This document shows, piece after piece, positions 13,615 through 53,061 of a DNA stretch of 64,000 bases; the first letter of the stretch is position 1, and each line of letters starts with the position of its first letter. This DNA comes from Deltaproteobacteria bacterium (lineage in GTDB: Bacteria > Bdellovibrionota > Bdellovibrionia > Bdellovibrionales > Bdellovibrionaceae): assembly GCA_017302835.1 (NCBI GenBank), contig JAFLCC010000005.1:124001-188000 (forward strand), given 5' to 3'. Position numbers and translations under genes: made by a program. The notes under the pieces were generated by a model, which was not told the origin of the DNA, ran no database searches, and worked only from the letters and a program-made list of their open reading frames with translations.

Positions 13615-14769
13615 CTTCTCAGTGAGGACTTGCGAATGAGATCAGCGGAAGTAGGAGACATTCAAAATTTACTCACGCTGTATTTTACCATTTATGGTGG
13701 AAATTACCCTTTAACTTTGGGCACAGATCGTAAGGTGATGAAGGAAATTTTGTTAAACGATAACAACCTGTGGTTGGTTATTTTTGATGAAAAAAATCAT
13801 CTCCTATGTGGATCTGCTGTATTTGAAGTGGATCCTCAGTACCGAATTGCTAGGGCCGAAGGCATTGTCGTCCATCCAGATTATCAAAATAAAGGCCTGG
13901 CCTCAAAGATGATTAACTATGGATCTGATTTATTACTTGAACATCAAAAATTAGTAAACTCCATTTATGCGACGACAAGAACTTTGAGTGTGGGACCGCA
14001 GTTGGCATTTATTAAAAATAATTATATTCCATTAGGAATTTTTCCAAATGCTCATCGCTTATCTAATTACGAGACTCTCACCTTGATGGCAAAACATAAT
14101 CCCGAAGTTTTAAAAAAAAGAATTCCGGTTGAAGAAGCTCCTGAGTTACTGGGACCTATTTTTTCTGCGGTCGATAAATTTATTCCCTCAATGCATAAAG
14201 CACCGAAACTTTTAAAAATGGTTCGTCCTAAACCTTCAGGAGAGTATTTGGAATTCGAAATTATCCACGCTCCAGAATATGTAAAAAGAAAGTTTAGCTC
14301 TCAATTCACAGATCCCTTTGATCAATTTTTTCCCTTTCACACACCTAATTTGTTATTAAGTGCCAAAAATGGCGAAGTAGATATATATGGATACTTAAGT
14401 GAATCCGATGGCTATTGTGCCTTAATCACAGCGACAGAACCCTTTTACACCATGGCGGGAAGGCTTCGCCCCTTAATGCAGCAGTTGCATGATTTTGGTG
14501 TTTCTTATATTGAAATTTTAATGGCCATGGACAGCATTTTATCCCTAGAGACATTGCTGGATTTAAATTTTCTACCTTCTGCCATTTATCCTGCGATGCT
14601 GGAGTACAAGGATCAATTTATGGATTTAGTGTTACTTTCTAGATCCATGGAACCATTGAATTTTCGAGGGATACAAATTGAAAAATCTTTTAAACCCTAT
14701 ATCGACCAGTACATTCAATTATGGAAAAAAATGCATTTAGAAGTTTTGGGGGTTTTCAGTGAAAAATAG
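13573..14769 (+). CDS. GNAT-family acetyltransferase, two-part
   Basis: 398 residues. Residues about 15-165 form a GNAT N-acyltransferase domain; RAEGIVVHPDYQNKGLASKM is motif A with the acyl-CoA-binding loop. Residues about 180-398 are not recognisable by eye and may be a second, degenerate GNAT-like lobe. The start overlaps the MFS stop (ATGA), so translation is probably coupled; because of the tandem duplication the true start could be 13573 or 13594. Within this operon it might acylate or acetylate an amine in the product. Substrate unknown. Confidence 0.75.
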   Translation: MKKGDSIMKKGDSILLSEDLRMRSAEVGDIQNLLTLYFTIYGGNYPLTLGTDRKVMKEILLNDNNLWLVIFDEKNHLLCGSAVFEVDPQYRIARAEGIVVHPDYQNKGLASKMINYGSDLLLEHQKLVNSIYATTRTLSVGPQLAFIKNNYIPLGIFPNAHRLSNYETLTLMAKHNPEVLKKRIPVEEAPELLGPIFSAVDKFIPSMHKAPKLLKMVRPKPSGEYLEFEIIHAPEYVKRKFSSQFTDPFDQFFPFHTPNLLLSAKNGEVDIYGYLSESDGYCALITATEPFYTMAGRLRPLMQQLHDFGVSYIEILMAMDSILSLETLLDLNFLPSAIYPAMLEYKDQFMDLVLLSRSMEPLNFRGIQIEKSFKPYIDQYIQLWKKMHLEVLGVFSEK

Positions 14770-15949
14770 TTTAACAGAAAAGAACTCAGCAAAAAAGCCA
14801 GACCTTTTTCCACCAGATAGGGAACAATTAAAGAAAGTGTTTCAAATCTGCACTCAAGAAAATCCATATCAAGATAACCAGAATGAGGGTTTAGAATTTG
14901 TTTTAGCAATGAAAGAAGTTTTTTCTTGGCATTATGATCGTTCGTCTTTTTTTAAAGAATTTTTACAACAAAATAATTTTGACATCAAAGCATGGGATGG
15001 CTCCTTGGAAAAAATTCCTTTTATTCCAGCTGATTTTTTTAAATTTCATGAAGTGAAGTCGATTGAAGAAGATGAGGTTTTTTTACACCTGACTTCTTCT
15101 GGTACCACAGGACAAAAATCTCAGATCTTCTTTGATAAATGGAGTTTGGAATCGGCACAACAAATGGTGAAATTTATCTTTCAATACTACGGGTGGGTAA
15201 CTGAAGAAAAGGCAAACTACTTGCTTTACAGCTATCAAACCGAAGCAGATTCAAAGTTAGGAACGGCCTATACCGATAACTTTTTGACTCAATTTGCACC
15301 TGTCAATTCTATAGAATACGCTTTGAAATGGAATGGCAAGAACGGTCATGATTTTGATTTATATGGCTGTATCAGGGCCTTGCAAAAATTTGCTTATGAA
15401 GGTTTGCCCGTTAGGATATTGGGATTTCCGTCCTTTTTTTATTTTACGATTCAAAGAATGAGGGACTTGCAAATGAAACCCCTTAAGCTTTCTCCGCAGT
15501 CCTTGGTATTTTTGGGTGGTGGATGGAAAGGCTTTGCAGATAAGGCCATTGATAAAACTGAGTTCTATAAAATGGTAGAAGATCAACTCGGTATTCCCAA
15601 TGAAAGATTAAGAGATGGCTTTGGCAGTGTCGAACACTGCATTCCCTATATAGAATGTAAGAATCATCATTTCCATGTGCCGATCTATTCGAGAGTCTTA
15701 ATTAGGGATTTGTATCATTTAAAAAATGTTGGTTACAACCAAGAAGGATTTCTGCAATTTATTTCTCCTTATATCACTTCGGTTCCTGCTAATTCTGTTT
15801 TGATGGGAGATTTAGCAATTCTTCATAAAGGATCGGACTGTGATTGTGGGTTAAATACGGATTGGTTCGAGATATTGGGTCGAGCCGGGTTGACCAAAAA
15901 TAAAAGTTGCGCCATCGCGGCTGCAGAACTATTAAGAGGTTTTATATGA
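14759..15949 (+). CDS. LuxE-like acyl-protein synthetase
   Basis: 396 residues, GTG start at 14759 overlapping the upstream gene by 11 bp. The adenylation loop LTSSGTTGQKSQIFFD (about residue 115) and the overall length fit LuxE, which activates a free fatty acid as acyl-AMP and passes it to a cysteine before handing it to LuxC. A late cysteine (Cys384, in KNKSCAIAA) sits where LuxE carries its acylated Cys; a CDCG motif lies shortly before. The next gene is LuxC-like, as expected for a fatty-acid reductase pair. No luxA or luxB is visible. Confidence 0.82.
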   Translation: MKNSLTEKNSAKKPDLFPPDREQLKKVFQICTQENPYQDNQNEGLEFVLAMKEVFSWHYDRSSFFKEFLQQNNFDIKAWDGSLEKIPFIPADFFKFHEVKSIEEDEVFLHLTSSGTTGQKSQIFFDKWSLESAQQMVKFIFQYYGWVTEEKANYLLYSYQTEADSKLGTAYTDNFLTQFAPVNSIEYALKWNGKNGHDFDLYGCIRALQKFAYEGLPVRILGFPSFFYFTIQRMRDLQMKPLKLSPQSLVFLGGGWKGFADKAIDKTEFYKMVEDQLGIPNERLRDGFGSVEHCIPYIECKNHHFHVPIYSRVLIRDLYHLKNVGYNQEGFLQFISPYITSVPANSVLMGDLAILHKGSDCDCGLNTDWFEILGRAGLTKNKSCAIAAAELLRGFI

Positions 15950-18492
15950 ATCAACTAAAACAACTGAAACAATTGAATCCACATTGGTGGCAAGGAGAAT
16001 GGATTGATAATGAAGACTTATTTCAGAATAAATTAACAACACTGAATAAATCAGTTTATGAAGGTCTAAATTCTGATTTTGACATTGAAACGTTTTATCA
16101 TTGCTGTGATCGCTTTTCTAAAGATTTATTGCAAAATCATTTGATGAGAGAAAAACTGTTGAATATTTTGGTGTCCTCAGGAGAGTCTTCAGAAACCGAA
16201 GCCCTCGGTGTTTTGTCTGGAATCAGCGACTTTTTAAAAGAAAGTGAATTAAGGATTAAAATGTCCCGCGAGGTAGGCCGGGATGATCCCTTTTTGTCCA
16301 CACGAGTTCCCCAGGAAAATGATGTTTTTGAATCCTATAGCCCATTAGGGTTTTTGGTTCAGATTTTACCTTCCAATGATTCCGCTCTTCCTGTGCTGAG
16401 TGCTTTTGAAGGATTACTCACTGGAAATGTTAATTTATTAAAATTGAGCCAACATTCCAGTCAGTTTACTTCCACCTTGTTTGATTTCTTTTTCGCTAAC
16501 GAATTAGCAGTCATTTTTAAAAAGAGATTGATCATCCTTAAAATTTCTTCCCAAGAAAAAGAGAGAATGCAGAAAATATTTAGCGAGGCTGACGGGGTTG
16601 TGGCTTGGGGAGGTGAAGAAGCCATTGCTGAAATCAAATCACTTTGTTCCTCTAAAGTGAGATTTATAGAGTGGGGTCATCGGATTTCTTTTTCTTATAT
16701 TAGCAGTCAATCTAAATTGAATCCTTCATTTATTCCGGATTTGGTAAAAGATATTTTAATCTACAGCCAACAAGCTTGCTCAAGCCCTCAGTGTGTCTAT
16801 GTGGAAAATGCGAGTTTTGTTGAGCTTCAGGAAATAGGTTTGAAAATAAGCGAAGAAATGGGCCAAGTTGCCGGCAATTATAGATTGTTAATCCCTTCTG
16901 CCATGGAATCTGCCGAAATTCAGAAAACGTCTTTGGTCGTCGAGACCGAACAAGCATTAAAATCTGAATGGGCCAAGGTGATCAGAGATGAAAAAGATCG
17001 ATGGAGAGTGTTGGTGGACATGCGGCCAGCACTTAGAGCCTCACCTTTATTTCGAACGGTTTGGCTGAAACCCATTTCAAGATCTCAATTATGGGAAGTG
17101 TTTCGACCTTTGCGATCCTACTTGCAAACCGTTGGGCTAAAATGTGAACTGAGTGAACTCAAAGAGCTTTCTCAAGGACTTTATCAGGCGGGAGTGAATC
17201 GGATTAGGCCCCTGGGAGATATGCATGGAAGCTATATGGGGGAGCCCCATGATGGTTATGCGGCCCTCTTGAGGTACATGAAAAAAACAAGTCTGAAGAG
17301 TGATTTGGTTCAGTTAAAAACCTATGGGACATTAAGTGATTTAGAGCGAAATGAAATTAAGTTTTCCTATCTTCCTGAAAGACTCATGACAAAGATGGAT
17401 TTTCAACAACAGAAAATTCCATCTGGAACTGAATTATTTTTTAAAAGTGGAGGAAGTAGTGGTGAACCTAAAATTTCTTATTTTACTTATCACGATTACC
17501 ACAGACAAATGGATTTGGCAGCTAAAGGGCTTTTAGCTGCAGGTTTAGTTCCACTAAAAGATAAATGTATCAATTTGTTTTTTGGTGGAGGTCTATATGG
17601 AGGTTTTTTAAGTTTTTATACAATTTTAGAAAAGCTTCAAGCGGTTCAATTTCCTATGTCGGCCCATATGGATTTTAAGTTTGTTGGGGAAGTAATTGTT
17701 AAAAATAAAATTAATGTTTTGCTGGGAATGCCATCCTATTTGATGTTGCTTTTTGAGGCCAATAAAGAATTATTTAAAACCAATCAAGTAATAGAAAAAA
17801 TATATTTCGGTGGAGAGCATTTATCCGAGCTTCAGAAGAAACATTGGCAGGAAGAATTTGGTGTGAAAACGTTCTTATCGGCAAGTTATGGAAGTGTGGA
17901 TATGGGTCCCTTGGGCTACCAGTGTGCTTCTTCAGGTCCACGCATTCATCATTTACATCAAAGCCTTCATTTTTTAGAAATTTATAAATTGGATAAAGAG
18001 GAGCCTGTTGAAAAAGGAGAAGTGGGAAGGCTCGTATTTTCCACCTTGGGCAGAGAAGGTCAAACGCTCCTACGTTATGATATCGGGGATGTTGGAAAAT
18101 GGATTGACGAGGAATGTCCTTGTGGAAGAAAATCGCCTCGTTTTGAACTTTTAGGTAGGTCCGGTGATATTTTTAGAGCCTCGAGCTGTTTTTATAGTTT
18201 TAGCAAGTTCCAACAAATTTTGGCGGATCATTTAAACTATGATCAGGAATTCCAGATCCTTATTGATAATCAATGTGGTTTAGATAGATTGACTTGTAAA
18301 ATAAATAAAAAAAGTCAGCTAGAGCAAGATCAAGTACTTTCCATGCTTATTAGAAACTATAAAGATTTACAAGAGACAGTTCAGGAAGAAAAAACAATGC
18401 TTCTCGATTTTTCGTTTGTAGACTCAGCTGATTTTTTAAAATCATCAGCCAGTGGAAAATTACTGCATGTGATTGATCAGCGGGTAAGGTGA
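15946..18492 (+). CDS. LuxC-type acyl-CoA reductase fused to a CapK/LuxE-like ligase
   Basis: 848 residues; ATG 15946 overlaps the LuxE stop (ATGA). Residues about 1-450 are a LuxC-like NADPH-dependent acyl reductase: ESYSPLGFLVQILPSNDS, the glycine-rich VVAWGGEEAI, and the likely catalytic Cys278 in SQQACSSPQC. Residues about 480-848 are an adenylate-forming domain of the CapK/phenylacetate-CoA-ligase type, with FFKSGGSSGEPKISY, FGGEHLSELQ, RYDIGDVG and a CPCGRKSPRFELLGR zinc/hinge motif. LuxC is normally a separate protein, so the fusion is unusual. It could activate and reduce an acyl group in one chain. Product unknown. Confidence 0.82.
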   Translation: MNQLKQLKQLNPHWWQGEWIDNEDLFQNKLTTLNKSVYEGLNSDFDIETFYHCCDRFSKDLLQNHLMREKLLNILVSSGESSETEALGVLSGISDFLKESELRIKMSREVGRDDPFLSTRVPQENDVFESYSPLGFLVQILPSNDSALPVLSAFEGLLTGNVNLLKLSQHSSQFTSTLFDFFFANELAVIFKKRLIILKISSQEKERMQKIFSEADGVVAWGGEEAIAEIKSLCSSKVRFIEWGHRISFSYISSQSKLNPSFIPDLVKDILIYSQQACSSPQCVYVENASFVELQEIGLKISEEMGQVAGNYRLLIPSAMESAEIQKTSLVVETEQALKSEWAKVIRDEKDRWRVLVDMRPALRASPLFRTVWLKPISRSQLWEVFRPLRSYLQTVGLKCELSELKELSQGLYQAGVNRIRPLGDMHGSYMGEPHDGYAALLRYMKKTSLKSDLVQLKTYGTLSDLERNEIKFSYLPERLMTKMDFQQQKIPSGTELFFKSGGSSGEPKISYFTYHDYHRQMDLAAKGLLAAGLVPLKDKCINLFFGGGLYGGFLSFYTILEKLQAVQFPMSAHMDFKFVGEVIVKNKINVLLGMPSYLMLLFEANKELFKTNQVIEKIYFGGEHLSELQKKHWQEEFGVKTFLSASYGSVDMGPLGYQCASSGPRIHHLHQSLHFLEIYKLDKEEPVEKGEVGRLVFSTLGREGQTLLRYDIGDVGKWIDEECPCGRKSPRFELLGRSGDIFRASSCFYSFSKFQQILADHLNYDQEFQILIDNQCGLDRLTCKINKKSQLEQDQVLSMLIRNYKDLQETVQEEKTMLLDFSFVDSADFLKSSASGKLLHVIDQRVR

Positions 18493-18499
18493 GGAGCCT

Positions 18500-19747
18500 A
18501 TGAAAGTTTTTAGTTTGACCGAATTAATTGAATTAGCTCGAAACAAATCGCCTTTTTATAAAGAGCTTTATAAGGGTATTTCGAATAATACACCCATCGA
18601 AGATCTGCCCTTAATTGAAAGTCATGATTTTTGGCACCATAACACCATAGAGAATAATCAAATTCTGACCGAAGAACAAACTGATGGGATTGTTTTTAAA
18701 AGCGGTGGAACTTCAGGAAATCCCAAGTTTTCTTTTTTTTCTATCGATGAATGGGAATTATTCACGCAAGCTTTTGGCGAGGGCATGAGAAAAGGTGGAT
18801 TGACCAAAGGAGATAAAATCGCCCATTTGTTTTATGCCGGTGATTTGTATGCGTCCTTTTTATTTATTACCAAATCTATAGAGAAGTCTTTATCTTCTGT
18901 GGTTCATTTCCCTCTGAGCGGAGGGGCTGATTTTGATCACATTGTAACAACAATAAATGCCTTTAAGCTTAATGTGTGGGCAGGAGTTCCGACGACGATG
19001 GTCAAACTGGCTGAGCACGCTGAAAAAAATAATTTACATCCTCCCAAGAAAATTCTATTCGGTGGAGAAAGCATGTATGCCGATCAAAAAGAATTTATTT
19101 TAAGTGTATTTCCTGAAGTGCAAATTCAGTCTATAGGATATGCAAGTGTAGATGGAGGCTTATTAGGATATGCAGATAGGACCTGCGCGCCTCAAGAACA
19201 CCGTGTGTTTTCTGATTTTACAGTGATGGAGATTATCGACGAGGAAACGTTGAAACCAATTAATGAAATTGAAAAACCAGGAAAACTTTATCTAACAAAT
19301 CTCACAAGGTCTTTAATGCCAATCATCAGGTACCCTGTTGGGGATAGGGCCATGTGGCTAGAGTCCCCAACAGATTATCGAAAATTTAAAATTCTTGGAC
19401 GTTCTGAAGAAGGGGCCAGGATCGGTCCTGCTACCGTTTACTATGAAGATATTTCGGCCTTACTGTCCCATTCTCATAGTGGATTTAATGTGAAAGGCTT
19501 TCAGTTAATCACCAAACATTTTCAGAATAAAGATCAATTGGTCATCAAAGTAGCAACAACAAGTAGAGACACGGCAGAGATGGAGCACTTAAAATCAAGA
19601 ATTGAAGCGGAACGTTCTTTTTTAAAAGAGTTGGCACATGAAAAACAGATTCATCCTCTCAAAATTGAATTTGTAGATATAACCGAATTAGAAACTAACC
19701 CCCGAACAGGAAAACTAAAACGCTTGATCGACGAAAGAAAAACTTAA
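18500..19747 (+). CDS. CapK/phenylacetate-CoA-ligase-like adenylating enzyme
   Basis: 415 residues, 7 bp after the LuxC fusion gene with GAGG before its ATG. Adenylation loop FKSGGTSGNPKFSFF (about residue 68), FGGESMYADQKE, RYPVGDRAMW and ILGRSEEGARIG align with the ligase half of the upstream fusion, so the two are probably paralogues. It lacks the CxCG motif present there. The operon thus encodes three acyl-activating domains (LuxE, fused ligase, this one), suggesting more than one acid is activated or that acyl groups are passed in relay. Last gene of the operon; converges with the OsmC gene after only 4 bp. Confidence 0.8.
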   Translation: MKVFSLTELIELARNKSPFYKELYKGISNNTPIEDLPLIESHDFWHHNTIENNQILTEEQTDGIVFKSGGTSGNPKFSFFSIDEWELFTQAFGEGMRKGGLTKGDKIAHLFYAGDLYASFLFITKSIEKSLSSVVHFPLSGGADFDHIVTTINAFKLNVWAGVPTTMVKLAEHAEKNNLHPPKKILFGGESMYADQKEFILSVFPEVQIQSIGYASVDGGLLGYADRTCAPQEHRVFSDFTVMEIIDEETLKPINEIEKPGKLYLTNLTRSLMPIIRYPVGDRAMWLESPTDYRKFKILGRSEEGARIGPATVYYEDISALLSHSHSGFNVKGFQLITKHFQNKDQLVIKVATTSRDTAEMEHLKSRIEAERSFLKELAHEKQIHPLKIEFVDITELETNPRTGKLKRLIDERKT

Positions 19748-20430: not shown

Positions 20431-22146
20431 ATGGGTTTAAAGCGGTTGGCTTTTTTTTCTGTGATCATTTTCTGTTTAACTTTTTCTGCTCAAAATTGTG
20501 GAAAGGTGTCAATAGACGAATTGGCTTCTACTGCCCCGTCAGTTTTAGAGTTAAATGCTGAGCCAAAAAATGATGATGCTCCAATACCCTATCCAGCGCC
20601 TGTTCCTGGACGCCCAACTCTTCCTTCAAACACGAAGGTGATCGAGTTCGATATAAATAAATACCCTAATGGATTTTCTTTTTCCTTGGGTAATCAGGAA
20701 GAATTGACGGTTATTAAAGATATTAAACTAAATGAAATAGGAGATCTGAGTGTAAAAACAAGTTTCAATAATGATCTCTCTTTCGATCCAAGTTCTTTGA
20801 TTTTTTTGTATAAACCTAAAATGGGATATTTAGGTTACGATCAAAAGGAAATTATTCTAACAACAATTGATGAAACGAAAATTAGATTTAGTTTAATTTT
20901 CATGGTTCGATCGTTAGTTCTTATCAATGAGACCAATGCCTTGGTATATGGAGACGATAGCGAAGATCAAACAGCTCTTCAAAAAAAACTTAATAATGAA
21001 AAACCTGTTGGAAGTGGGGATATCTTTTATAAATGGGAAAGGGTAGCAGCAAATCAATTATTTACTCCAACATCCTTAACGAGTGCGCTTTTTGTTGAAA
21101 AGACAGGGAGGGATGCTTTTTGTTTTGCTGAAAATGTTGTTGTCAATGAAACAACCGGAAAGTACGATACTATTTTTCTCCCTGGAGTTACTACTTCTCC
21201 TTGTGCTCTTGTCAAAGATGCGCAGGGGAATAATGTGATCTCTACCACAAAAACTGATCCAGGTGGTCATTGCGTTTGTACAGCGAATGCAACCTTTCAA
21301 GCTCAATCTTGGAATCTTTTGACCAATCCAGCAAGAATATTAAGCTTGGTAAATTCAAATCGACTAACTGGCTTTATAAGTCCCCTAATTTTTGATAATT
21401 ACACACATTCCGCAGTACTTCAATCAACCAATCGAGACGATGATCTTGTTGCCATGATCATTGCGCAAAAAAGAATAGTGGAGGATTCAGGCATTAGCAA
21501 AAACTATACCTTAGCCGCCATCAGAGCTCAAGGTGGGATTAGCTTTCCTGGAAGGGTTTCGACGGATCCACCGATAAACTGGGCACTTGTCTATTTTGAG
21601 GATGGAAGTCCAATAAACTTAATAGCCTCCAAAGAGATTGGAATTTCCTATAAAAATCCAAGCACTGGCTCCATAAGCTTGGCTAAAAAAAATGATGGGT
21701 GGAGTGGAAAATCCTCAATGGTAAAAATAGTTAGAAATAAAAATTTAATACAGGCATGGGTCAGCGATTGGGCTTTGAGTGGGGAACCTTTTCCTACAGA
21801 TGTAATTGGAGATTCTCTATTGTCTGTAGATTTAAGCAGTTTACCTATATTAGAAAAGTTTATTGGACCTCAGAAATTTGGATATGGTTCCCTTAGTCAA
21901 ATGTGGTCAAGTTTTAATAATGTTCAATTCGATTCCGGAGTATCTGATAAATATGTTTATGATTTGAAAAAAAATGAATTGTACGAATTACAAAATGATG
22001 GAAAGTACCTTCGTAGGCAGGATATTAATCCCTACATTTTGTTAGGTTCGCCGCGAATTGTTGGAAATCCAGAAACATTCAAAAGGTATAGGCTAAAGGA
22101 AGATCAGTCATTTGTATTATGCAGAGATGAATCTTGTTTGAACTAA
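20431..22146 (+). CDS. Large exported lipoprotein, unknown function
   Basis: 571 residues. Signal peptide (RLAFFSVIIFCLTFS) followed by AQNCGK, where Cys23 is the probable lipidated residue; the -1 Asn makes this a non-standard lipobox seen also at 28399. Then a Pro-rich linker (PIPYPAPVPGRP) and a long beta-rich region without a family I recognise. A GGGGGGG stretch just before the ATG is the likely ribosome site. Four cysteines in the middle (near residues 230-280) might form disulfides. Secreted or surface role is inferred only from the signal. Confidence 0.7.
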   Translation: MGLKRLAFFSVIIFCLTFSAQNCGKVSIDELASTAPSVLELNAEPKNDDAPIPYPAPVPGRPTLPSNTKVIEFDINKYPNGFSFSLGNQEELTVIKDIKLNEIGDLSVKTSFNNDLSFDPSSLIFLYKPKMGYLGYDQKEIILTTIDETKIRFSLIFMVRSLVLINETNALVYGDDSEDQTALQKKLNNEKPVGSGDIFYKWERVAANQLFTPTSLTSALFVEKTGRDAFCFAENVVVNETTGKYDTIFLPGVTTSPCALVKDAQGNNVISTTKTDPGGHCVCTANATFQAQSWNLLTNPARILSLVNSNRLTGFISPLIFDNYTHSAVLQSTNRDDDLVAMIIAQKRIVEDSGISKNYTLAAIRAQGGISFPGRVSTDPPINWALVYFEDGSPINLIASKEIGISYKNPSTGSISLAKKNDGWSGKSSMVKIVRNKNLIQAWVSDWALSGEPFPTDVIGDSLLSVDLSSLPILEKFIGPQKFGYGSLSQMWSSFNNVQFDSGVSDKYVYDLKKNELYELQNDGKYLRRQDINPYILLGSPRIVGNPETFKRYRLKEDQSFVLCRDESCLN

Positions 22147-22181: not shown

Positions 22182-23435
22182 TTAAAAGTCATAGGCAATA
22201 CCCATTCCATTTCGATTCAGGAACAAGTCGATATTGTTTTTTGAAGAAGTAATGGAGTTAGTTTGAAAGTAAATTCTTGTTCGCCCCTTTAAGAAGGAAG
22301 GATTTATTGTGAATTTCATAATTTTCTCAGTAAAAGTTCCATCTGAAGAGGTATTTGAGTATTGTAAGTCTAAAGAGTAAATCGTTTTTTGAAAAGTGTA
22401 TTGAGCTTGTCCACCAATGAAGGGAGCCGCATAACTGGAACTAACGCCAATACCTGCTAAACTCAAGGTGTGAAATAAGTATCCTAATTCTGAAGATAAC
22501 TGAAAGTTATTTCTTTTCCATCGATACCCACTTGCGATTTCGTAGGAGCTGATTGTGGCTTCCCGTTCATTTAATTTTTTTTGATTAGTTAACGGAAGAT
22601 AACCATTAAAGACGAAATAAATATTGGATTCCCCAAGAGAGAGTTCTGCATGTAGAGGTAGTCTGAATTCTGAAAATGAACTTTTATCTGAAGTTGATTT
22701 TGAAGCAGATCCTGAATTGTAATCAAGGCCAACCCTGAATTTCAAGAGTTGATTTTCAGAGGGAACGGCGGTTTGATTCTGTTTGAAACTTAACTTAACC
22801 GTATTTCTTTGATCCAATTGTCCCCAGGATAAAGCCCAGTGTTCTTGAGCTGTTACGTCTGAACCTGAAAAAAGTTTCCACCGATCACCTTTTCCTTCAG
22901 AGATGCGAATAGATGATCCCAGCCAGTTAGCGTCTGTGGTTGATGAAAAAATTACGGAGACGACCTCATTGTTCTTTAGTGTACATGATAAAGATCCTGG
23001 GTAACTAGTTGTTTTGGGACCGGACAATTTGTATTTCACTTTTAATTTTTCGCAGCTTTCGTCCACTATAAAAGTTGGTGGTTGCCCAATCATTTTAAAA
23101 TTGAACAAGGATGTTTGATCATTTGTTTTAAAAAGAATTTGTCCCGTGCTTTGAGATAACAAAAGCAGAGATTTGTCTAAATTATCTTTTGGAAATTCAA
23201 CAAGTTTCGTTGAATCACCTTCTTCACTATAGTTGGCTTGCTGAAAAGCGATGGGTGCTTTCGTTTGAATAAAGATTGCTCTTTTTCCATTTTCATTAGC
23301 AATGCTAAGGGTTCCTGTTGTTGTCGTTAGAGTCCCTTGACTGGATTGCCATTGAATCGTGTAAGTTTGGGTGGCTGCGATACTAGTAGTTAGTTTAAAA
23401 AAGAAAAAAACAAAAATTACCTGGATTTTTTTCAT
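22182..23435 (-). CDS. Outer-membrane beta-barrel protein of a Mot-like operon
   Basis: 417 residues with a signal peptide ending near SIAATQ. The N-terminal half (about 25-190) is a beta-rich soluble domain with a single probable disulfide (two cysteines in SCEKL and LSCTL). The C-terminal half has alternating aromatic beta strands and ends GMGIAYDF, a terminal Phe being the classic BAM targeting signal. Its start overlaps the stop of the MotB-like gene by 4 bp, so it is translationally coupled to the motor genes and is probably their outer-membrane partner. I do not recognise a named family. Confidence 0.65.
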   Translation of the reverse strand: MKKIQVIFVFFFFKLTTSIAATQTYTIQWQSSQGTLTTTTGTLSIANENGKRAIFIQTKAPIAFQQANYSEEGDSTKLVEFPKDNLDKSLLLLSQSTGQILFKTNDQTSLFNFKMIGQPPTFIVDESCEKLKVKYKLSGPKTTSYPGSLSCTLKNNEVVSVIFSSTTDANWLGSSIRISEGKGDRWKLFSGSDVTAQEHWALSWGQLDQRNTVKLSFKQNQTAVPSENQLLKFRVGLDYNSGSASKSTSDKSSFSEFRLPLHAELSLGESNIYFVFNGYLPLTNQKKLNEREATISSYEIASGYRWKRNNFQLSSELGYLFHTLSLAGIGVSSSYAAPFIGGQAQYTFQKTIYSLDLQYSNTSSDGTFTEKIMKFTINPSFLKGRTRIYFQTNSITSSKNNIDLFLNRNGMGIAYDF

Positions 23436-24523
23436 TGCAAGACCTGAATCTTTCCCTTTTCATCAATTGTAAAAGGAACTAATTTGGGAATGCCTACACC
23501 TTTTATCTGAAACTCTTCACTTTTGTAAATATCAGATTGGGAAAATATCGTCAGTTTTACTTTTGCTGGATTAATGTTCCCATTTTTGTTAAATAAAACA
23601 ATTCGAGCAATATATTTTCCTGGCTTGTAGTTTTCAGCTTTCCACATTTCAATTCCTGGACCAAAGCGACTATCAATTTCAAAATTTCCAGGAAGTCCAT
23701 TAATTTTTCTTCTCTTGAAATTAAAGACCTTATTTTTGTCAAAATAAATTTCCAAATCTAAATCATGTTTTTCGGTATCCCATGTGACCAATGTGGAAAC
23801 GTAGTTTTGCTGAGTGATTTGTTTTGACATGAGTTCTGCATTCTGGTTTTTTGCCTGTTCTAATTCATTTTTTACCCGTTCTAGCTCTGCTTTCACTTGT
23901 TCTAATTCATTATTAAATTTTTCATTAAGTTTTGTCGTTGAAACTTCAGCGGCACTGGTAATTTCTCTTTCTTTCTTTTTTTGTTCAGAACTCAGGGCTG
24001 AAATTTTTTCTTTTAGAGTTTCAATTTTTTCTTGTTGTTCTTGAAGTGCCTTTTTTTGATCAGCTATTTGTACATCGGACTTATTTTTTTCTTCTGCTAT
24101 TTTTTCAATTTGAGTTTTTAATTCTACTTTTTCGGACTCTAGCTTTTCCAACGTTATTTTTTCAGTTGTATTTTCAGGAGGTGATACGACGTCATTCTTC
24201 TTAAGAGAGGAACGAGGGTCTTGATAAGAAAAAAATTTATTTGAAATCTGTCTCATGGTTTCATCTGCATCCTTTGTTTTATCAGATTTCAAAACATAAA
24301 GAAGTACAAATAGTCCAAAAAGTAGGGTCATCATATCAGCATAACTGACCAGCCATCCCATTTCTGTTCCCGAATGGCTTCCGCCTGAATGATCCTCCTC
24401 AGTTAACTTTTGATGTTTGGCGACAAATTCTTCTGATGTGGTTTCTATTAGTATGGTATCATCTGATGTGGCTTGTTTTTCCTTTTTCATAGTTGGCCTA
24501 GGAAGCATTTTTTGTTTGGCCAT
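23432..24523 (-). CDS. MotB/ExbD-like stator protein with a DUF2135/YfaP-like C-terminus
   Basis: 363 residues. A cytoplasmic tail (1-53) leads to one membrane helix, GWLVSYADMMTLLFGLFVLL, with Asp63 in the position of the proton-carrying Asp of MotB. A long coiled coil follows (about 115-235, Glu/Lys/Gln-rich). The C-terminal 120 residues contain LVTWDTEKHDLDLEIYF, DSRFGPGIEMW and PGKYIARIVLF, a pattern I associate with DUF2135/YfaP beta domains, in place of the usual OmpA-like peptidoglycan-binding domain. Overlaps the MotA-like gene by 26 bp. Likely a proton-driven motor component that contacts something other than peptidoglycan. Confidence 0.75.
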   Translation of the reverse strand: MAKQKMLPRPTMKKEKQATSDDTILIETTSEEFVAKHQKLTEEDHSGGSHSGTEMGWLVSYADMMTLLFGLFVLLYVLKSDKTKDADETMRQISNKFFSYQDPRSSLKKNDVVSPPENTTEKITLEKLESEKVELKTQIEKIAEEKNKSDVQIADQKKALQEQQEKIETLKEKISALSSEQKKKEREITSAAEVSTTKLNEKFNNELEQVKAELERVKNELEQAKNQNAELMSKQITQQNYVSTLVTWDTEKHDLDLEIYFDKNKVFNFKRRKINGLPGNFEIDSRFGPGIEMWKAENYKPGKYIARIVLFNKNGNINPAKVKLTIFSQSDIYKSEEFQIKGVGIPKLVPFTIDEKGKIQVLQ

Positions 24524-25313
24524 TTGACGAGCTCAATATTCTCGATACTTCATAATGATCCATCATGGACAATTTATTGCGGCAGTTAGTGATGACCTTT
24601 TTGTGTGAGTATCCTTTTTTCATTTGGATACAGGTCTCAATGATAATATCTCGGAGGAACAAGTCATCTTCTGCGGCTTTAGTGGAATTGTCTGCGAGCG
24701 GAAGAAAGACGAAATTGTTAAGTCCTACTCCCCATAGAGTGGCCGTCAAAGCCACCGCCATGGAGGCGCCAATACTTTCAATTCCCACTTTTCCAAGCCC
24801 TGACATCATGCCAATCATTCCAGATGCCGCACCCAGAAGACCTAAATGGGGAGGGTATTTAGCAATATTGTTCAGAATTTTTGCGTCTTCTAGATATAGC
24901 CTTTTGACCGAATTACGCCGATCAACAAGTATCTCTTGCAAGGTGGTCGCATCATATTCTGGATTTTCAAGGAGATTCATGGCATCTTTTAAAAAAGGAA
25001 AGAGATCACCTGTTGGCGAAAACCTTGGAACCAACTCATAATAAGCATCTATCATTGCAAATATATCGTGAATCACGGAGCTTTCATTTTTTTTTGTTTT
25101 AAAAAGAAAACCAAAAACAATATAGTTATATACTTGATTTAGTCTTTTAGCTGAATAGGTTAAATAAGCAATTCCAATGGTTCCCCCTAAAACTAATATA
25201 AGTGCATGGGAGTTGAGTAAGATAGCTGGATTTCCAGCCGAATGAACCACTCCGAAATATATTACCAATCCGCAAATTAAAATGCCAGTCCAGGTGCTCT
25301 TCATAAAAAACAT
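24498..25313 (-). CDS. MotA/TolQ/ExbB proton-channel family protein
   Basis: 271 residues with four predicted membrane helices: two at the N-terminus (about 7-50) and two in the region 150-215 (HLGLLGAASGMIGMMSGLG and ALTATLWGVGLNNFVFLPL), with a cytoplasmic loop between, the topology of MotA. It should form the ring around the MotB-like helix of the next gene, which overlaps it by 26 bp. No flagellar genes are nearby, so a non-flagellar use is likely. First gene of the three-gene operon. Confidence 0.85.
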   Translation of the reverse strand: MFFMKSTWTGILICGLVIYFGVVHSAGNPAILLNSHALILVLGGTIGIAYLTYSAKRLNQVYNYIVFGFLFKTKKNESSVIHDIFAMIDAYYELVPRFSPTGDLFPFLKDAMNLLENPEYDATTLQEILVDRRNSVKRLYLEDAKILNNIAKYPPHLGLLGAASGMIGMMSGLGKVGIESIGASMAVALTATLWGVGLNNFVFLPLADNSTKAAEDDLFLRDIIIETCIQMKKGYSHKKVITNCRNKLSMMDHYEVSRILSSSNGQTKNAS

Positions 25314-43405: not shown

Positions 43406-45238
43406 GTGAGTAAAATTACTAAAAGCAGTACCGCCGAGTACTTTGCTAAGAACTTGCAGCAAGTGGGCTTTTCATCGCCCTTAAAGGCCGTTTTAACAAC
43501 CCTCAAAGAGGCTGTAGATAACTCCTTAGATGCCTGCGAACAAGAGGGAATATTGCCTGAGATCTCCTTAGAGATTACTAAAATAGGAACGGGATCTACA
43601 AAAAATACGGATTTAATCAGGATCGTTGTCGAGGACAATGGACCAGGGATTGAGCCCGATGATCTAGCTAAGGTTTTTGGTGAGTATTTAGCTTCTTCCA
43701 AATTTGGAAAAGGGCAATGTTCCCGAGGTCAACAGGGTATTGGAATATCCGCAGCGACAACTTGGGCTCAAATGACCAATGCCCGTGGGGTTGTTGTTGT
43801 TTCAAAAACTAAAAATATGAGAAAAGCCATCAAGGCCCAAGTTGATGTGGATATCAAATCAAATACGGGATTGATAAAAAATAAAGAGAGCATTGATTGG
43901 AATAAGCCCAATGGCGTTCGTGTTGAGTTTGCAATGGATGGTAGAATCCAGCTTAATGGGGATGGAGGTTTGATAACTTATATCGAGGGAACGGTGTTGG
44001 TGAACCCTCATCTAACGATAAAATACAAATTATTAGATAACGATTGGGTGAGCATTGAACGTGTGACGACAGAGGTGCCCGAAGTTCCCATGGCCACCTT
44101 GCCCCATCCACATACTTTTAAATTGGGCGAGTTTATCACCTACGCCACTCTTTTTGGGAAAATGACCCTATCCAAGTTTTTAAAGACCGGATTTTCGCGA
44201 GTCTCAGATCAGAGTTTATCTGATTTTGTGAGCAAGGGCTTGCCTAAGAATTTACTTGAAAAATCAATTTCATCTTTGTCTGAAGATAGCTTTAAATTGA
44301 TTTTTACAGCGATTCAAAATTCCGAGCTCATGGCTCCATCGACGAAATCAGTATTAACGGTTGGGGAAGAGGCCTTATCTAAAAGTATATTAAGATTGGG
44401 AAAGGTTGACTTTTTTTCGGTGGTTACGAGGAAACCGCAAATTTGTGATTTTAAACCCGTCGTGGTAGAGGTTGCCCTCGCTCGATTTATTGATCGAGTC
44501 GGGGATATGGACACTCCGGTTCAGCTATTGAGATTTGCAAACCGAGTTCCTTTGCAATTTGATAAGTCAGGATGTGCGATCACAGGCGCTATCGAATCAG
44601 TTAATTGGAAATCCTATGGATTGCAGCAACCTAAAGATTCTTTACCCATTGGACCTTATATTTTTGCAGTGAGTGTGGTTTCGCCATTTATTAAATTTAA
44701 AAATGCCTCAAAAGAAACTATAGATGCTTCTGAAGAACTTGTGGATGAAATCAGAAAGGCGGCGCAACAGGCAGGCCAGAAATTATCTCGGCATATCAAT
44801 AAAGAATTTAAAGAAGCCGATCTGGAAAGAAAGTTGGCTCATATCGAGCAATTTGGTCCGATTCTTGTTGAGAAATTGGCCGTGATCACTGGCGCCAGTG
44901 AAGCGAGAAGAAAAAGAGCTGAAGAGGGTTTAAGAAAAATTTTAGGTAGGGACTCTCAAGAGGCCATCGAAGAACTTGAAGTGGCACAGACAAAATTAAA
45001 AGCTCAGAAGCAAAAGGAAGCTAAATTAACCGGTGGAGACGACGAAGGTAACCCAGAAGGCAGCGAACAATTAATGTTTTCCGAAGAAAACATAGATGCT
45101 GGCACTACGAAATCTACGGGCACCCAAGCGAGTACCACAAAAACTACCGCAACCTCAGCAACAACGACGGCAACCACAGCGACGACGGCGACAGTGGCGA
45201 CAGTGGCGACGACAACTCAAACAACGGCGAAGAAGTAA
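43406..45238 (+). CDS. top6B: DNA topoisomerase VI subunit B
   Basis: 610 residues, GTG start with AAGGAAA upstream. GHKL ATPase: LKEAVDNSLDACEQEG (N box), VVEDNGPGI (G1), GQQGIGISAATTWAQ (G2), then the transducer with RFANRVPLQFD (K-loop region has QQ at LQQPKDS). It powers the A subunit by clamping on DNA. After about residue 560 comes a Thr/Ala-rich tail (ATTTATTATTATVATVA) made from short DNA repeats, not typical of the family. Next gene, 9 bp on, is subunit A. Archaeal-type enzyme, rare in bacteria. Confidence 0.93.
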   Translation: MSKITKSSTAEYFAKNLQQVGFSSPLKAVLTTLKEAVDNSLDACEQEGILPEISLEITKIGTGSTKNTDLIRIVVEDNGPGIEPDDLAKVFGEYLASSKFGKGQCSRGQQGIGISAATTWAQMTNARGVVVVSKTKNMRKAIKAQVDVDIKSNTGLIKNKESIDWNKPNGVRVEFAMDGRIQLNGDGGLITYIEGTVLVNPHLTIKYKLLDNDWVSIERVTTEVPEVPMATLPHPHTFKLGEFITYATLFGKMTLSKFLKTGFSRVSDQSLSDFVSKGLPKNLLEKSISSLSEDSFKLIFTAIQNSELMAPSTKSVLTVGEEALSKSILRLGKVDFFSVVTRKPQICDFKPVVVEVALARFIDRVGDMDTPVQLLRFANRVPLQFDKSGCAITGAIESVNWKSYGLQQPKDSLPIGPYIFAVSVVSPFIKFKNASKETIDASEELVDEIRKAAQQAGQKLSRHINKEFKEADLERKLAHIEQFGPILVEKLAVITGASEARRKRAEEGLRKILGRDSQEAIEELEVAQTKLKAQKQKEAKLTGGDDEGNPEGSEQLMFSEENIDAGTTKSTGTQASTTKTTATSATTTATTATTATVATVATTTQTTAKK

Positions 45239-45247
45239 GGAATTTTT

Positions 45248-46414
45248 ATGGCAACAGGTTTAATTAGAGTTCGAGATTTAAAGATAAATATTCCCAAGGA
45301 AGCCCAAATTCTTGCCGACAAAATGCTTCGCGATTTGGAAAATTCAAAGAGACCTTATTTGGAGGCGGTGAAGACATCGTTAGATAATTCCTTTTACAAT
45401 TCCAAGGTAGGTTATCTAACTCCAGGTGATAAACGTGTTCGAACCGAATTAAATGTTTCCTCCGTACAAAAGTTAGCACGCGTTGTTTTTATGTTGGAAA
45501 TTTTATTAAGAAATTTAGATATTGGCGCCGTGAATACTAAAAGAGAATTGTACTATATCTGTAAAGGTTTAATTAAAGGGGATAAGAAATATAAACCCTT
45601 AGATTTTGAAGACCAAACAGAGTCCGATTCTATTATCGATTTTATTGGTGATATGATGCAAATTTACCGTGAAGAGCTGAACTGTTTTGCCAATGACCGC
45701 GGTGGGCAAACTTACTCCAATCAACTGATTGTGGAAGAAGTGATGCCTGATGGCTCAAAGGCAACTATTGATTTATCAAGCCTAGGTACTTCTCCGTATT
45801 TACCCAAAAACAAACCTCAATCTTTAAAACTGCGCGCCCGTAAGAAGATCGATTTTGCCTTGATTGTCGAATCAGAAGGTACCGCGAATACCTTGCACAC
45901 CATGGGTTTCACGCGACGTAACAATTGTATATTGATTGGCGCTCAGGGGGTTCCCTCCAACGGAGTGCGGGGTTGGTGTAAACTGATCCAAGACGAGTTG
46001 GAAGTACCCATGTACTTTTTTGGGGATCTGGATGCCTACACTCTGCAAAATATTTTTAGAACCTTGAAGGCGGGATCAGCAGCCTCTCTTATTCGAAATG
46101 CCGATTTTTCTGCACCTGAAGTGAAGTTCCTTGGAGTGTTGCCAGAGGATGTCAAAAAATATGATTTATTTTGTTACAATGTAAAGGAATCAGATCCTGT
46201 CGAAGCTAGGGCTTTGAAAAAAGCTAAGGATGCTTTAGAAAATGACCCCTTCTTTACTGACCGAAAAAATAAGGGGCTTTCTGATATTTTAAAATGGTTG
46301 ATGAGTGCAAAAATTCGTTGTGAACAACAAAGTTTTTTTTCGGTGGACCCTAAAGATCCCATTAAAACGGAAAAGATCATTTTGGAAAAGATAAAAAATA
46401 GATCCTATGTTTAA
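45248..46414 (+). CDS. top6A: DNA topoisomerase VI subunit A (Spo11-like)
   Basis: 388 residues. The winged-helix domain has NTKRELYYICKG, with Tyr103 the likely catalytic residue that attacks DNA. The Toprim part has DFALIVESEGTANTLHTMGF (Glu) and YFFGDLDAYTLQNIF (D-x-D). With subunit B it forms the A2B2 type IIB topoisomerase that cuts and passes duplex DNA. It lies directly after subunit B as an operon. Confidence 0.93.
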   Translation: MATGLIRVRDLKINIPKEAQILADKMLRDLENSKRPYLEAVKTSLDNSFYNSKVGYLTPGDKRVRTELNVSSVQKLARVVFMLEILLRNLDIGAVNTKRELYYICKGLIKGDKKYKPLDFEDQTESDSIIDFIGDMMQIYREELNCFANDRGGQTYSNQLIVEEVMPDGSKATIDLSSLGTSPYLPKNKPQSLKLRARKKIDFALIVESEGTANTLHTMGFTRRNNCILIGAQGVPSNGVRGWCKLIQDELEVPMYFFGDLDAYTLQNIFRTLKAGSAASLIRNADFSAPEVKFLGVLPEDVKKYDLFCYNVKESDPVEARALKKAKDALENDPFFTDRKNKGLSDILKWLMSAKIRCEQQSFFSVDPKDPIKTEKIILEKIKNRSYV

Positions 46415-49629: not shown

Positions 49630-51954
49630 TTAAAATTCTCCTTTGATTCCAAAAGCGGGGAGCAGGGGGAGTCCCGTGATAAATTCTTTTTGTGAGTAAT
49701 TATAAGAATACTCAATAGATTCAGGGTTCTTTGTATTTAAAATATTTTGAATGTCTAAATAAAGAGTCCAAATTTCTTCGTTCAAGATCCATTTTTTATC
49801 AACTCGCAAATCTAATTGGTAAAAATCTTTATAGCGTTCAGAATATAAACTTCCACGAGTAGGGATGTAGACGTCATTATCCGTATCAAAAGTTCCTGAA
49901 ACAACAGGGGTTAAAGGGTTTCCAGTGACATAGCGGAAACGGTTAGAGATTTTCCAATTATTTCCTAATTTCTTTGAGGTTACGAGATTTAAATTATGAG
50001 TTTGGTCATAGGCATGTTTGTAAGAAGCGACGAGGGGATTCCATCTGAAGCTTTCACTCCAGGTATAGCTCAACCAAAGATCCCAGGTATCATCATTCCA
50101 TTTAAGTTGATTCTCAATGCCGTAAGAGCGGCCAGCTCCTTGATTATTATAATTTTCAGAATAAAGGATACCCTCTCGTTCTACTTTCGCATAGGATTGG
50201 ATCACTAAGCGATCCAGCCACTTATCAAAAAATTGAGTTTGCCAGGTAAAGCCATCCTTCGCATTTTTTCTGAAGTCTTTTTCAAAACCGAGGCTGGTAT
50301 GAATAGCTCTGGGGGACTTGATGTCTGGGTTTCCAAAGCTCTGATCCTGTTCTTGGGGTTCAGGTGGTTGAAAATAAAGGCCGCTTGCAGCTTTGAGAAG
50401 TAGATCCTCTTGGATTTTCCATTTTGCCGCCAATCTAGGAGATAGAAAGGTTTCCTTGGTGAGGGTAAACTTATCTACGCGCAGTCCCGGAACATAAGTC
50501 CATTGACCCGAATTGATTTCATGACGGTTGTAGATTCCAATATTGCTAATTTTCCCGGTGATATTTCGTTCTTTCACCTCGCTGGAAGCAAATGGATTGC
50601 TCACTCCTCCCTCGCTTCGAGGCTGAACCAGTTTTATTTTTACCTTGGCTTGGCCATAGATGTTGTCCACTCCCCATTGAGAAATCCAATCAGAGTTGAA
50701 AGAATGCTCGTACTCACCTCGCAAACTTAAAATATCAGATTGCAAGTTGAAATATTGTTGTCCCAGATCAATGAGGACTTGATTCTGACCCAGTCCTGCG
50801 GAGAATTTTAGGGAATTATTGTCTTCTAATTTTCGCGACCAACTAGGAATGAAACGATAAAACTGCGTTTCATTGTAAAAAGTTCCGCGAAAGGATGGGT
50901 CCGTTTTGACAGGCTCTTTTAATACAAAGGACAAAATGTCTCTGGAAGCGACACTGACCAAATTAAACTCATCCTTTGAATTAATTTTTTTATGATAGAC
51001 TCCGGTAACATCGTAAAATTCAGGAGCTACAGTTAAATTGGCGTCTTCTTGATTTTTGGCAACTTGTTGAAGAAAAAGACCAATGTAACTGGCTCTCGCG
51101 CTGATCAAATAAGAGGTCTCAGGATCCACCGTACTTTCATAAAGTCCGCCAATCTTAAGGTTATCCGCAAAGAAAAAAGATTTTTTAGAACGATCTCCAG
51201 AATTGGGGATTTTGGTTTTTAAATTGATAATTCCACCGGTAGCCCTCGAGTTTTCAGCGCCATAACCAGCAGATAAATAATCAACTTGTTCTAAGGCTTC
51301 CGGCATGACAACCGAAGATAAGCCTCCGAAGTGAAAAACGATAGGTATTTCATGCCCCTCCAAAGAATAGGAAGTATCTTTCGGTTCGCCTCCTTGGATG
51401 ACGACCTGGGAGGAAAACCCTTGAACTCTGTTAACACCGGGCAAATTTTGAACCGCTTTGATGGGATCGCCTCCACTGCCAGGCATCGCCAGAAATTGTT
51501 CCTGGGTGAGGGTTTTTTGAGTCTGGTCTCTTTTTTGTTTTTGCCCTATCACCCTGGTTTCAAATCCCAAATAAGATTCTTTTTCAATGAATAATTTTAA
51601 AGAGGTGTCTGAGTCGGAGCTATCTAGGACCCGTTCAAATTTTTTATAACCACTGACGTTGACAACAAGTTGATAGTCATCTTCAGTTTTACTTTGAGAA
51701 TGAGTGTTTGTAATAGATTGGGAGTTAGAATCCCTAGGAATATCGAATTTAAAACGACCCTGGGTATCGGTCACTGTTTTAAGTTTTAAAGGGAGTAAGA
51801 ATACAGAAACTTCTTTTAGTGGGTTATTTGTTCCTTTTTCAATTAAAACACCATGGAATTTTAGTGACTCATTTTTAAGAGTGGACTCCTCGGCAGATGA
51901 AATGTTGAAAAAAAAGAATATAAAATATAAAAATATTAGTAAAGTTTTTTTCAT
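49630..51954 (-). CDS. TonB-dependent receptor with CarboxypepD-like N-domain
   Basis: 774 residues. Signal peptide, then a carboxypeptidase-regulatory-like beta domain (about 32-125, GVLIEKGTNNPLKEVSVFLL and DTQGRFKFDIP), a plug (AVQNLPGVNR, QVVIQGGEPKDTSY) and a 22-strand barrel. It ends GIKGEF with terminal Phe. It imports a ligand through the outer membrane using TonB/ExbBD energy. Substrate not readable. The three genes upstream supply its own TonB, ExbD and ExbB. Confidence 0.9.
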   Translation of the reverse strand: MKKTLLIFLYFIFFFFNISSAEESTLKNESLKFHGVLIEKGTNNPLKEVSVFLLPLKLKTVTDTQGRFKFDIPRDSNSQSITNTHSQSKTEDDYQLVVNVSGYKKFERVLDSSDSDTSLKLFIEKESYLGFETRVIGQKQKRDQTQKTLTQEQFLAMPGSGGDPIKAVQNLPGVNRVQGFSSQVVIQGGEPKDTSYSLEGHEIPIVFHFGGLSSVVMPEALEQVDYLSAGYGAENSRATGGIINLKTKIPNSGDRSKKSFFFADNLKIGGLYESTVDPETSYLISARASYIGLFLQQVAKNQEDANLTVAPEFYDVTGVYHKKINSKDEFNLVSVASRDILSFVLKEPVKTDPSFRGTFYNETQFYRFIPSWSRKLEDNNSLKFSAGLGQNQVLIDLGQQYFNLQSDILSLRGEYEHSFNSDWISQWGVDNIYGQAKVKIKLVQPRSEGGVSNPFASSEVKERNITGKISNIGIYNRHEINSGQWTYVPGLRVDKFTLTKETFLSPRLAAKWKIQEDLLLKAASGLYFQPPEPQEQDQSFGNPDIKSPRAIHTSLGFEKDFRKNAKDGFTWQTQFFDKWLDRLVIQSYAKVEREGILYSENYNNQGAGRSYGIENQLKWNDDTWDLWLSYTWSESFRWNPLVASYKHAYDQTHNLNLVTSKKLGNNWKISNRFRYVTGNPLTPVVSGTFDTDNDVYIPTRGSLYSERYKDFYQLDLRVDKKWILNEEIWTLYLDIQNILNTKNPESIEYSYNYSQKEFITGLPLLPAFGIKGEF

Positions 51955-52625
51955 TATCTATTCTCCAAAATAAATCTATAAGTGTAACGAATTCTAACAG
52001 CAACAGACTGATCCTTTATTTTTGCGGGTCTAAAACGAAAGTTTTTAATTGCCGATAGAGCCGCCTCATTTAAACCAAATCCAGGTCCATTAATCAAGAT
52101 GACTTGTCTAACTTGCCCCTGGTCATCGATGAGGAGGTCCATGTTCACAGGTCCTTCAACTCCAGCTTTTTTTGCAGCTTCAGGATAGGGAATTCTGACT
52201 TCAGAAACCAATTGGGGCATGCTGGAAACGAGGTAATCATCGGCAGGAATAGGTATAGAATCTTGGTCTTTTGGATCCAGACTTAAATTATCTTGTTCTT
52301 TAGCTATCGTATTTCCTAATTTAACTTCGGCAGTGGTTTCTGAACTCGTCGTTGTCGATATCGCTTTCCTGGAAACCCCAAAAACAGGCTTGGTATCCAA
52401 ATTCGGTGGAGGTGGTTTAGCTTTTTGAGTTTTAGGAGTTTCTAAATTTAAGGTTTTGGAAACGACTTTTGGTGAATCATAAACTTCAAACGGGACAGAA
52501 ATTTTTTTGATGGTGGGTTTTAAATTTAAGCCAACGAGCAAGATAACAAAACTAAAATGAATAACCAATGAAAGAGTCAGCGGACTTTTCCAATTCAGAG
52601 AACCTTTCCAAAATGGAACAGTCAT
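51954..52625 (-). CDS. TonB-like energy transducer
   Basis: 223 residues. N-terminal membrane helix (PLTLSLVIHFSFVILLVGLNL) with the His expected in TonB, a Pro-rich periplasmic linker (KAKPPPPNLD) and a C-terminal TonB domain (EVRIPYPEAAKKAGVEGPVNMDLLI, ALSAIKNFRFRPAK). Overlaps exbD by 4 bp and the receptor gene by 1 bp. Delivers proton-motive energy from ExbB/ExbD to the receptor. Confidence 0.9.
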   Translation of the reverse strand: MTVPFWKGSLNWKSPLTLSLVIHFSFVILLVGLNLKPTIKKISVPFEVYDSPKVVSKTLNLETPKTQKAKPPPPNLDTKPVFGVSRKAISTTTSSETTAEVKLGNTIAKEQDNLSLDPKDQDSIPIPADDYLVSSMPQLVSEVRIPYPEAAKKAGVEGPVNMDLLIDDQGQVRQVILINGPGFGLNEAALSAIKNFRFRPAKIKDQSVAVRIRYTYRFILENR

Positions 52626-53044
52626 GGTTTTTTCTCTTCTCTTTCAATTTGTACGGCAAATTTTTCTAATCCAGCGGTTTTTAAAATATCAATTACTTTG
52701 ACCACTTTGCCATAGGAGGCTTCTTTGTCAGCGCTGATAAGGGCTTGAGCCTGTGGGTTCTCTGCCAGAGACAACTTCGTAGCCTCAGAAAGCCCCGCTT
52801 CGTCGGTCAGTTGCCCATTGAGTAAAATATTTCCATCTTTGTTTACGGCCACGCCAAGAGTTTGCATCATTTGGCCATCTCCAGTTTTGGTTTTAGGCAG
52901 GCGTAATTCAAGAATATCTTTGACCAACATGGGTGCCGTGACCATAAAAATCACTAATAGGACTAAGACCACATCCACAAAGGGTGTGATATTGATGGCC
53001 GTCATGATACCTTCATTGTGCGATTCTTCATTGGATGCAGCCAT
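52622..53044 (-). CDS. exbD: Biopolymer transport protein ExbD
   Basis: 140 residues, single N-terminal helix NITPFVDVVLVLLVIFMVTAP with the essential Asp in FVDVVLV, followed by the periplasmic domain. Second gene of the exbB-exbD-tonB-receptor-lipoprotein operon. Confidence 0.93.
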   Translation of the reverse strand: MAASNEESHNEGIMTAINITPFVDVVLVLLVIFMVTAPMLVKDILELRLPKTKTGDGQMMQTLGVAVNKDGNILLNGQLTDEAGLSEATKLSLAENPQAQALISADKEASYGKVVKVIDILKTAGLEKFAVQIEREEKKP

Positions 53045-53061
53045 TAGGTTTCCTCCAGTAG

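Follow-up and report, generated by a model that had tools for sequence, protein, structure and literature searches.

A MotAB-like motor unit with a YfaP-type tip and a co-encoded outer-membrane barrel: a candidate outer-membrane machine in Bdellovibrionota

What work could a flagellar-type proton motor do if its B subunit carries no anchor for the cell wall, and its genes run directly into that of an outer-membrane barrel? The question is raised by a three-gene unit on the minus strand, in the order MotA-MotB-barrel, within 64,000 nucleotides of the genome of a member of the Bdellovibrionaceae (assembly GCA_017302835.1, contig JAFLCC010000005.1, positions 124,001 to 188,000). This whole stretch is here called the window, and positions are counted from its first letter. 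On balance, the unit probably encodes a compact, proton-driven trans-envelope motor that acts on an outer-membrane complex of barrel and lipoproteins. The case for an energised motor that is aimed at the outer membrane, and not at the cell wall, is much stronger than the case for any particular task that it performs there. The open reading frames (ORFs) of the unit were confirmed at the positions given below, where its features are listed together with that of a convergent neighbour.

25313-24498, minus strand: A subunit, flagellar-class MotA-like proton channel by sequence (271 aa, MotA_ExbB match)
24523-23432, minus strand: B subunit, MotB-like transmembrane/plug region followed by a coiled-coil-like linker and a YfaP/DUF2135-like domain (363 aa)
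23435..23824, minus strand: YfaP/DUF2135-like beta-sandwich of the B subunit, predicted (residues ~234-363; hhalign and AF2)
23435-22182, minus strand: predicted outer-membrane protein with signal peptide, N-terminal beta domain and 10-strand barrel (417 aa)
20431..22146, plus strand: convergent putative lipoprotein (571 aa ORF with a lipobox-like N-terminus)

Parts of the three-gene unit

The A subunit matches the Pfam family MotA_ExbB (E 6e-13), has MotA/PomA as its best solved relatives (E 1.8e-15), and retains the equivalents of the E. coli MotA residues P173, T209 and P222. When a maximum-likelihood tree is built with the E. coli proteins MotA, ExbB and TolQ for reference, this family's A subunits group with flagellar MotA, and a branch with 98/98 support splits them off ExbB/TolQ; some branches are long, so that details within the flagellar side are unsure. 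Judged by its sequence, the A subunit of the window is of the flagellar (FIT) class, outside the ExbBD/TolQR (GIT) class, and the separation from Tol-Pal and TonB energisers made in the original prediction agrees with this placement. The region facing FliG (R90/E98 in E. coli) is gapped in the family, as it is in the other flagellar MotA proteins of the phylum.

The B subunit is of the MotB_plug type (Pfam, E 7.5e-12, residues 48-96), with no Pfam match to ExbD. Its family profile aligns with canonical MotB (E 8e-24), the match being confined to the transmembrane region. Asp63, the proton-carrying residue that had been pointed out in the original prediction, is kept throughout, being invariant across 19 homologs. 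Pfam finds no OmpA domain in the protein, but does find one in each of the positive controls, namely E. coli MotB and three MotB paralogs encoded in this genome. Between the plug and the C-terminal domain lies a linker of ~150 aa (about residues 85-235) with 2% Pro+Gly and 55% polar or charged residues, a composition that makes it coiled-coil-like; as one straight helix it would measure ~22 nm. Across the family the linkers mostly come to 15-36 nm when taken as straight helices, and a few are much longer.

The C-terminal 130 residues of the B subunit are predicted to form an all-beta fold (AF2 pLDDT 93.9). Direct scans with Pfam, NCBIfam and PADLOC give no significant match, so that the assignment needed profile-profile comparison: the gathering threshold of PF09906 (DUF2135) is missed by the window protein, and only one of 10 members matches this model at all (E 0.13). 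When a profile of 23 family members is aligned by hhalign with five YfaP-like proteins, the match reaches a probability of 98.1% (E 1.3e-13, 98 columns). Two of the five reference proteins were checked and both carry PF09906, and one of the five adjoins an alpha-2-macroglobulin gene. The family profile also pulls YfaP proteins from the genomes (E 1e-8 to 1e-12). A divergent OmpA fold, the alternative that could have undone the original prediction, was not borne out by the same comparison, the figure being 98.1% for YfaP vs 0.3% for canonical MotB. By profile, then, the domain is YfaP/DUF2135-like and not OmpA-like, and the replacement of the OmpA domain by a coiled coil and a YfaP-like domain holds, in a genome whose MotB paralogs carry OmpA.

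Structure comparison adds little about the role of this domain. A Foldseek search with it gives no hit with E below 1e-3, and the closest solved folds by VIA-align are TerD-like proteins (Z 8.3-10.0, over 121-129 of the 130 residues). The resemblance is just above the usual background and gives only a lead towards a metal- or calcium-binding role, to which invariant acidic residues in the domain also point. Run against the sequences of solved structures, the domain profile yields weak matches only, the best being the beta domain of Tk-subtilisin from Thermococcus (E 0.13), with which the domain has a W...DLDL motif in common. No report of DUF2135/YfaP together with MotB was found in the open-access literature.

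The product of the third gene is predicted to be an outer-membrane beta-barrel protein. It has a hydrophobic N-terminus (a signal peptide by inspection) and ends in Phe. The AF2 model (mean pLDDT 78) consists of an N-terminal beta domain (residues 24-216), presumably periplasmic, and a 10-stranded barrel (231-417), which makes up only the C-terminal 45% of the protein. The barrel part matches 10-strand outer-membrane proteins (OpcA, Z 20.5; Pla, 18.7; OmpT, 16.5) as well as a Legionella Dot/Icm porin (Z 19.3). Across 17 homologs the sole invariant residues are C128, C151, G181 and K182, all located in the N-terminal domain, which bears a GKGxxW motif.

Overlaps of 26 and 4 bp had been noted between the genes. 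The 4-bp overlap of MotB and barrel genes is secure and conserved, while the 26-bp overlap of MotA and MotB hinges on the choice of start codon. If MotB starts at Met12, its start falls just past the MotA stop, giving an A/B spacing closer to that of relatives.

Conservation, a second motor type and neighbouring genes

A YfaP-tipped B subunit is present in 21 of the 369 Bdellovibrionota genomes searched. Weaker matches occur in eight more; of the six that were inspected, five are YfaP-like proteins that stand alone and one lies within a protein of 1053 aa. Of the 24 loci with B-YfaP genes, 21 also have a barrel that single-linkage clustering of neighbours assigns to one family, and this barrel family is present in 26 of the loci compared. 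The tight order A-B-barrel is found in 11 loci, in genomes of several taxonomic families, and eight of these have the same 4-bp overlap between the B and barrel genes. Since the family of each part is conserved across several taxonomic families, the trio is not a chance arrangement, and it is conserved together, as had been expected. Within the order (141 genomes), B-YfaP is present in 16 genomes, the barrel in 17 and both in 14 (Fisher p 1e-14, without correction for shared ancestry). Three genomes (G093, G097, G107) have a barrel and no detected B subunit. Pairwise distances of A and B subunits correlate (r 0.49, p 0.0002, near-identical pairs removed). Named records with the YfaP-like domain include Ca. 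Bdellovibrio qaytius, metagenome-assembled genomes (MAGs) of Pseudobdellovibrio, and a MAG labelled Bacteriovorax stolpii. For the distribution beyond Bdellovibrionota the basis is a single pattern-limited scan, and no match was found in plasmids.

The YfaP tip is not confined to one kind of motor. Four genomes (G098, G106, G136, G140) carry it on a different B subunit, with the N-terminus INVFSTSAIDLFAS, at five loci (L105, L109, L114, L115, L116). In three of these genomes (G098, G136, G140) the adjoining A subunit is a MotA_ExbB-family channel (PF01618) that groups with ExbB/TolQ in the tree; it lies next to the INVFSTSAIDLFAS-type B subunit in L114-L116. A barrel of the same family stands beside the second type of B subunit in G106, G136 and G140 (L109, L115, L116). 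The tip thus occurs with a second motor type, in three cases with the barrel nearby. Together, tip and barrel behave like a module independent of the channel class, with which ion motors of two classes have been fitted.

Large putative lipoproteins are the recurrent neighbours. They fall into a Cys-rich type (8 loci), S8 subtilases (7 loci; E 1e-26 to 1e-36 where scanned), an NHL-propeller type (5 loci) and an Lcl-like type (4 loci). At one locus, an RND/MMPL exporter-like membrane protein, recognised by eye, is encoded convergently with the MotB-YfaP gene (L049, 5863-8892).

The genome of the window carries three such systems: that of the window, a trio on C4 that is accompanied by Lcl-like lipoproteins, and a locus on C10 (L137, 1063-14630), where the genes for a tandem pair of barrels, a lipoprotein of the S8 subtilase type and two of the Cys-rich type are convergent with MotB-MotA. 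It also has three canonical MotAB pairs with OmpA domains (L040, L042, L043); the cytoplasmic loop of MotA looks less typical in L040 and L043 than in L042.

In the window itself, the 571-aa putative lipoprotein ends 35 bp from the barrel stop, in convergent orientation. It has no Pfam match and no relative among the other loci compared, and an association with the motor unit is possible but unproven. Elsewhere in the window, both subunits of DNA topoisomerase VI are encoded side by side, in a bacterium (43406-46414, plus strand; Top6B transducer, E 7e-45; Spo11/Top6A toprim, E 2.5e-36). Another cluster (14759-19747, plus strand) is of the fatty aldehyde type. Its genes overlap and encode a LuxE-like acyl-protein synthetase, a fusion of a LuxC acyl-CoA reductase with an AMP-binding enzyme, and a second ligase-like protein.

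The proposed machine and its rivals

Gene order, co-occurrence and linker length suggest that motor and barrel are physically coupled. Since it lacks an anchor in the cell wall and its linker could span the periplasm, the B dimer would be best positioned to exert a push or a turn on the barrel protein's periplasmic domain. In MotAB, A and B subunits form a proton channel, and rotation by proton flow is assumed here by analogy. The A and B subunits would assemble 5:2, and proton flow would turn A around the B dimer, or the reverse. Spanning the periplasm, the dimer would bear with its YfaP tips on the periplasmic domain of the barrel, and the resulting force may move, export or reposition large outer-membrane lipoproteins, which are proposed as the objects of the work because they are the recurrent neighbours. 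Lipoproteins of the subtilase, Cys-rich, propeller and Lcl-like kinds might serve as interchangeable cargo or as tools on the cell surface. That the output lies in moving, exporting or displaying surface lipoproteins is the weaker part of the proposal. Rather more tentative than the motor itself, and still plausible, is the idea of an undescribed class of proton-powered outer-membrane machines, in which a YfaP tip and a dedicated barrel would be mounted on either a flagellar MotAB or an ExbB/TolQ-type chassis. A genome would hold as many as three of these machines, and the surface lipoproteins that they carry would be exchangeable.

Several observations weigh against a motor that works on barrel and lipoproteins. 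Two linkers, at 51 and 61 nm, exceed the straight span of a normal periplasm. The locus in G137 and both loci in G098 hold a B subunit without a detected barrel. Distances of B subunits and barrels, with near-identical pairs again removed, are uncorrelated (r 0.03, p 0.42), a test that is weak either way because the barrels are only ~15% identical. None of the recurrent lipoprotein families is represented next to the unit in the window. Lastly, FlhA and flagellins are encoded in every one of the 21 carrier genomes, and in Ca. Bdellovibrio qaytius the genes lie directly after fliA-fleN-flhF-flhA (L044; names assigned by eye).

These last two points favour an alternative or auxiliary flagellar stator, which would still dock on the flagellar rotor but use the YfaP tip and the barrel to hold on to the outer membrane in place of peptidoglycan. 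The flagellum of these bacteria is sheathed, and the A subunit belongs to the flagellar class. However, the genome of the window already has its three OmpA-bearing MotAB pairs, most other loci are not beside recognisable flagellar genes, the barrel/YfaP module occurs also with an ExbB/TolQ-type channel, and the recurrent neighbours are lipoproteins; an auxiliary stator is thus unlikely. Carriers that are free of flagella would be the natural test, which is uninformative here because all carriers are flagellated. The distinction from flagella drawn in the original prediction therefore applies to anatomy, while an accessory role at the flagellum is less likely but possible.

Some more room must be given to an energiser of the TonB or Tol kind, although it too is rather improbable. 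Here the B subunit would pull on the barrel for substrate uptake or to keep the outer membrane attached to the cell, without moving surface lipoproteins. The general layout is the same, an inner-membrane proton channel with an outer-membrane barrel, and the A subunits of the second type are ExbB/TolQ-like. The A subunit of the window, however, is in the flagellar class, and a barrel of 10 strands is too narrow for a TonB-dependent receptor, which has 22. No TonB, TolA, TolB or Pal was noticed in the loci, and the window has a separate ExbB-ExbD-TonB set at 53652-51954. This set is part of a classic outer-membrane energising group (49630-53652, minus strand), in which the ExbB-ExbD-TonB-like genes are followed by those for a TonB-dependent-receptor-like protein and a lipoprotein.

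Least probable among the rivals is a gliding engine in the strict sense, with the motor dragging surface adhesins along the cell. Its layout would be like that of Agl-Glt and GldLM, each with a proton motor, outer-membrane barrels and lipoproteins, and gliding is known in the phylum, where its motor is an open question (PMC13104615). Against it, there is no full-strength match in g4, the genus of the family with the best sampling, which its many complete genomes mark as probably Bdellovibrio, and B. bacteriovorus nonetheless glides and has Agl-Glt homologs (PMC3169522). The distribution of the system is also patchy, and a single genome can have as many as three copies whose lipoproteins differ, which suggests several jobs.

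A proton-driven motor acting on an outer-membrane barrel/lipoprotein complex would be of interest on several grounds. It represents a flagellar-class motor without an OmpA anchor, apparently rebuilt toward the outer membrane, and so a natural experiment on stator repurposing. It is a candidate machine in a predator phylum for which the surface motor and force transmission have been called a major open challenge (PMC13104615). As the system is carried by Ca. Bdellovibrio qaytius, a species with a complete genome, it can be sought in the laboratory.

Comparison with known systems

The nearest known relative by sequence is the MotAB/PomAB stator (FIT class, PMC12505986), with which the window unit shares the class of MotA, the channel residues, and the transmembrane Asp and plug of MotB. 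A survey of MotAB and its non-flagellar relatives describes an OmpA-like peptidoglycan anchor in flagellar B subunits (PMC12505986). This peptidoglycan-binding domain is absent from the B subunit of the window, which has instead a coiled coil and a YfaP domain; the co-encoded outer-membrane barrel is a further difference.

By profile, the tip belongs to the same family as the YfaP/DUF2135 proteins of alpha-2-macroglobulin operons, which are stand-alone and secreted, whereas here the domain forms the tip of a motor subunit. Genuine YfaP examples do occur in Bdellovibrionota, one of them beside an alpha-2-macroglobulin gene. The barrel is similar in fold to 10-strand outer-membrane proteins of the OpcA/OmpT type (Z 16-20) but has no sequence relation to them (7-13% identity), and unlike these it is preceded by a conserved N-terminal beta domain with two Cys and GKGxxW. 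Zorya, from which the unit had been set apart, gives no PADLOC match for the A subunit and a match to the coiled coil only for the B subunit, consistent with that separation (ZorC/D/E neighbours were not searched for).

GldM is an example of a B subunit that carries beta domains. GldLM, of the type IX secretion system (T9SS) and gliding apparatus of Bacteroidota, works alike in that a proton motor acts on an outer-membrane complex, and it is described as non-homologous to MotAB (PMC13104615). The window unit would be set apart from it by this published description, and no GldK/N, Sor/Por or T9SS partners were noticed among the neighbours of the loci. The Agl-Glt system of Myxococcus likewise combines a proton motor with outer-membrane barrels and lipoproteins, and has relatives in Bdellovibrionales (PMC3169522). 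Its AglQ/AglS are of the ExbD/TolR type and AglR is TolQ-like (PMC3169522), whereas the window unit pairs a B subunit of the MotB type with an A subunit of the flagellar class, which places it outside the definition of Agl-Glt. The best reading, drawn by analogy, is of a motor that may work like GldLM or Agl-Glt, with membership claimed in neither.

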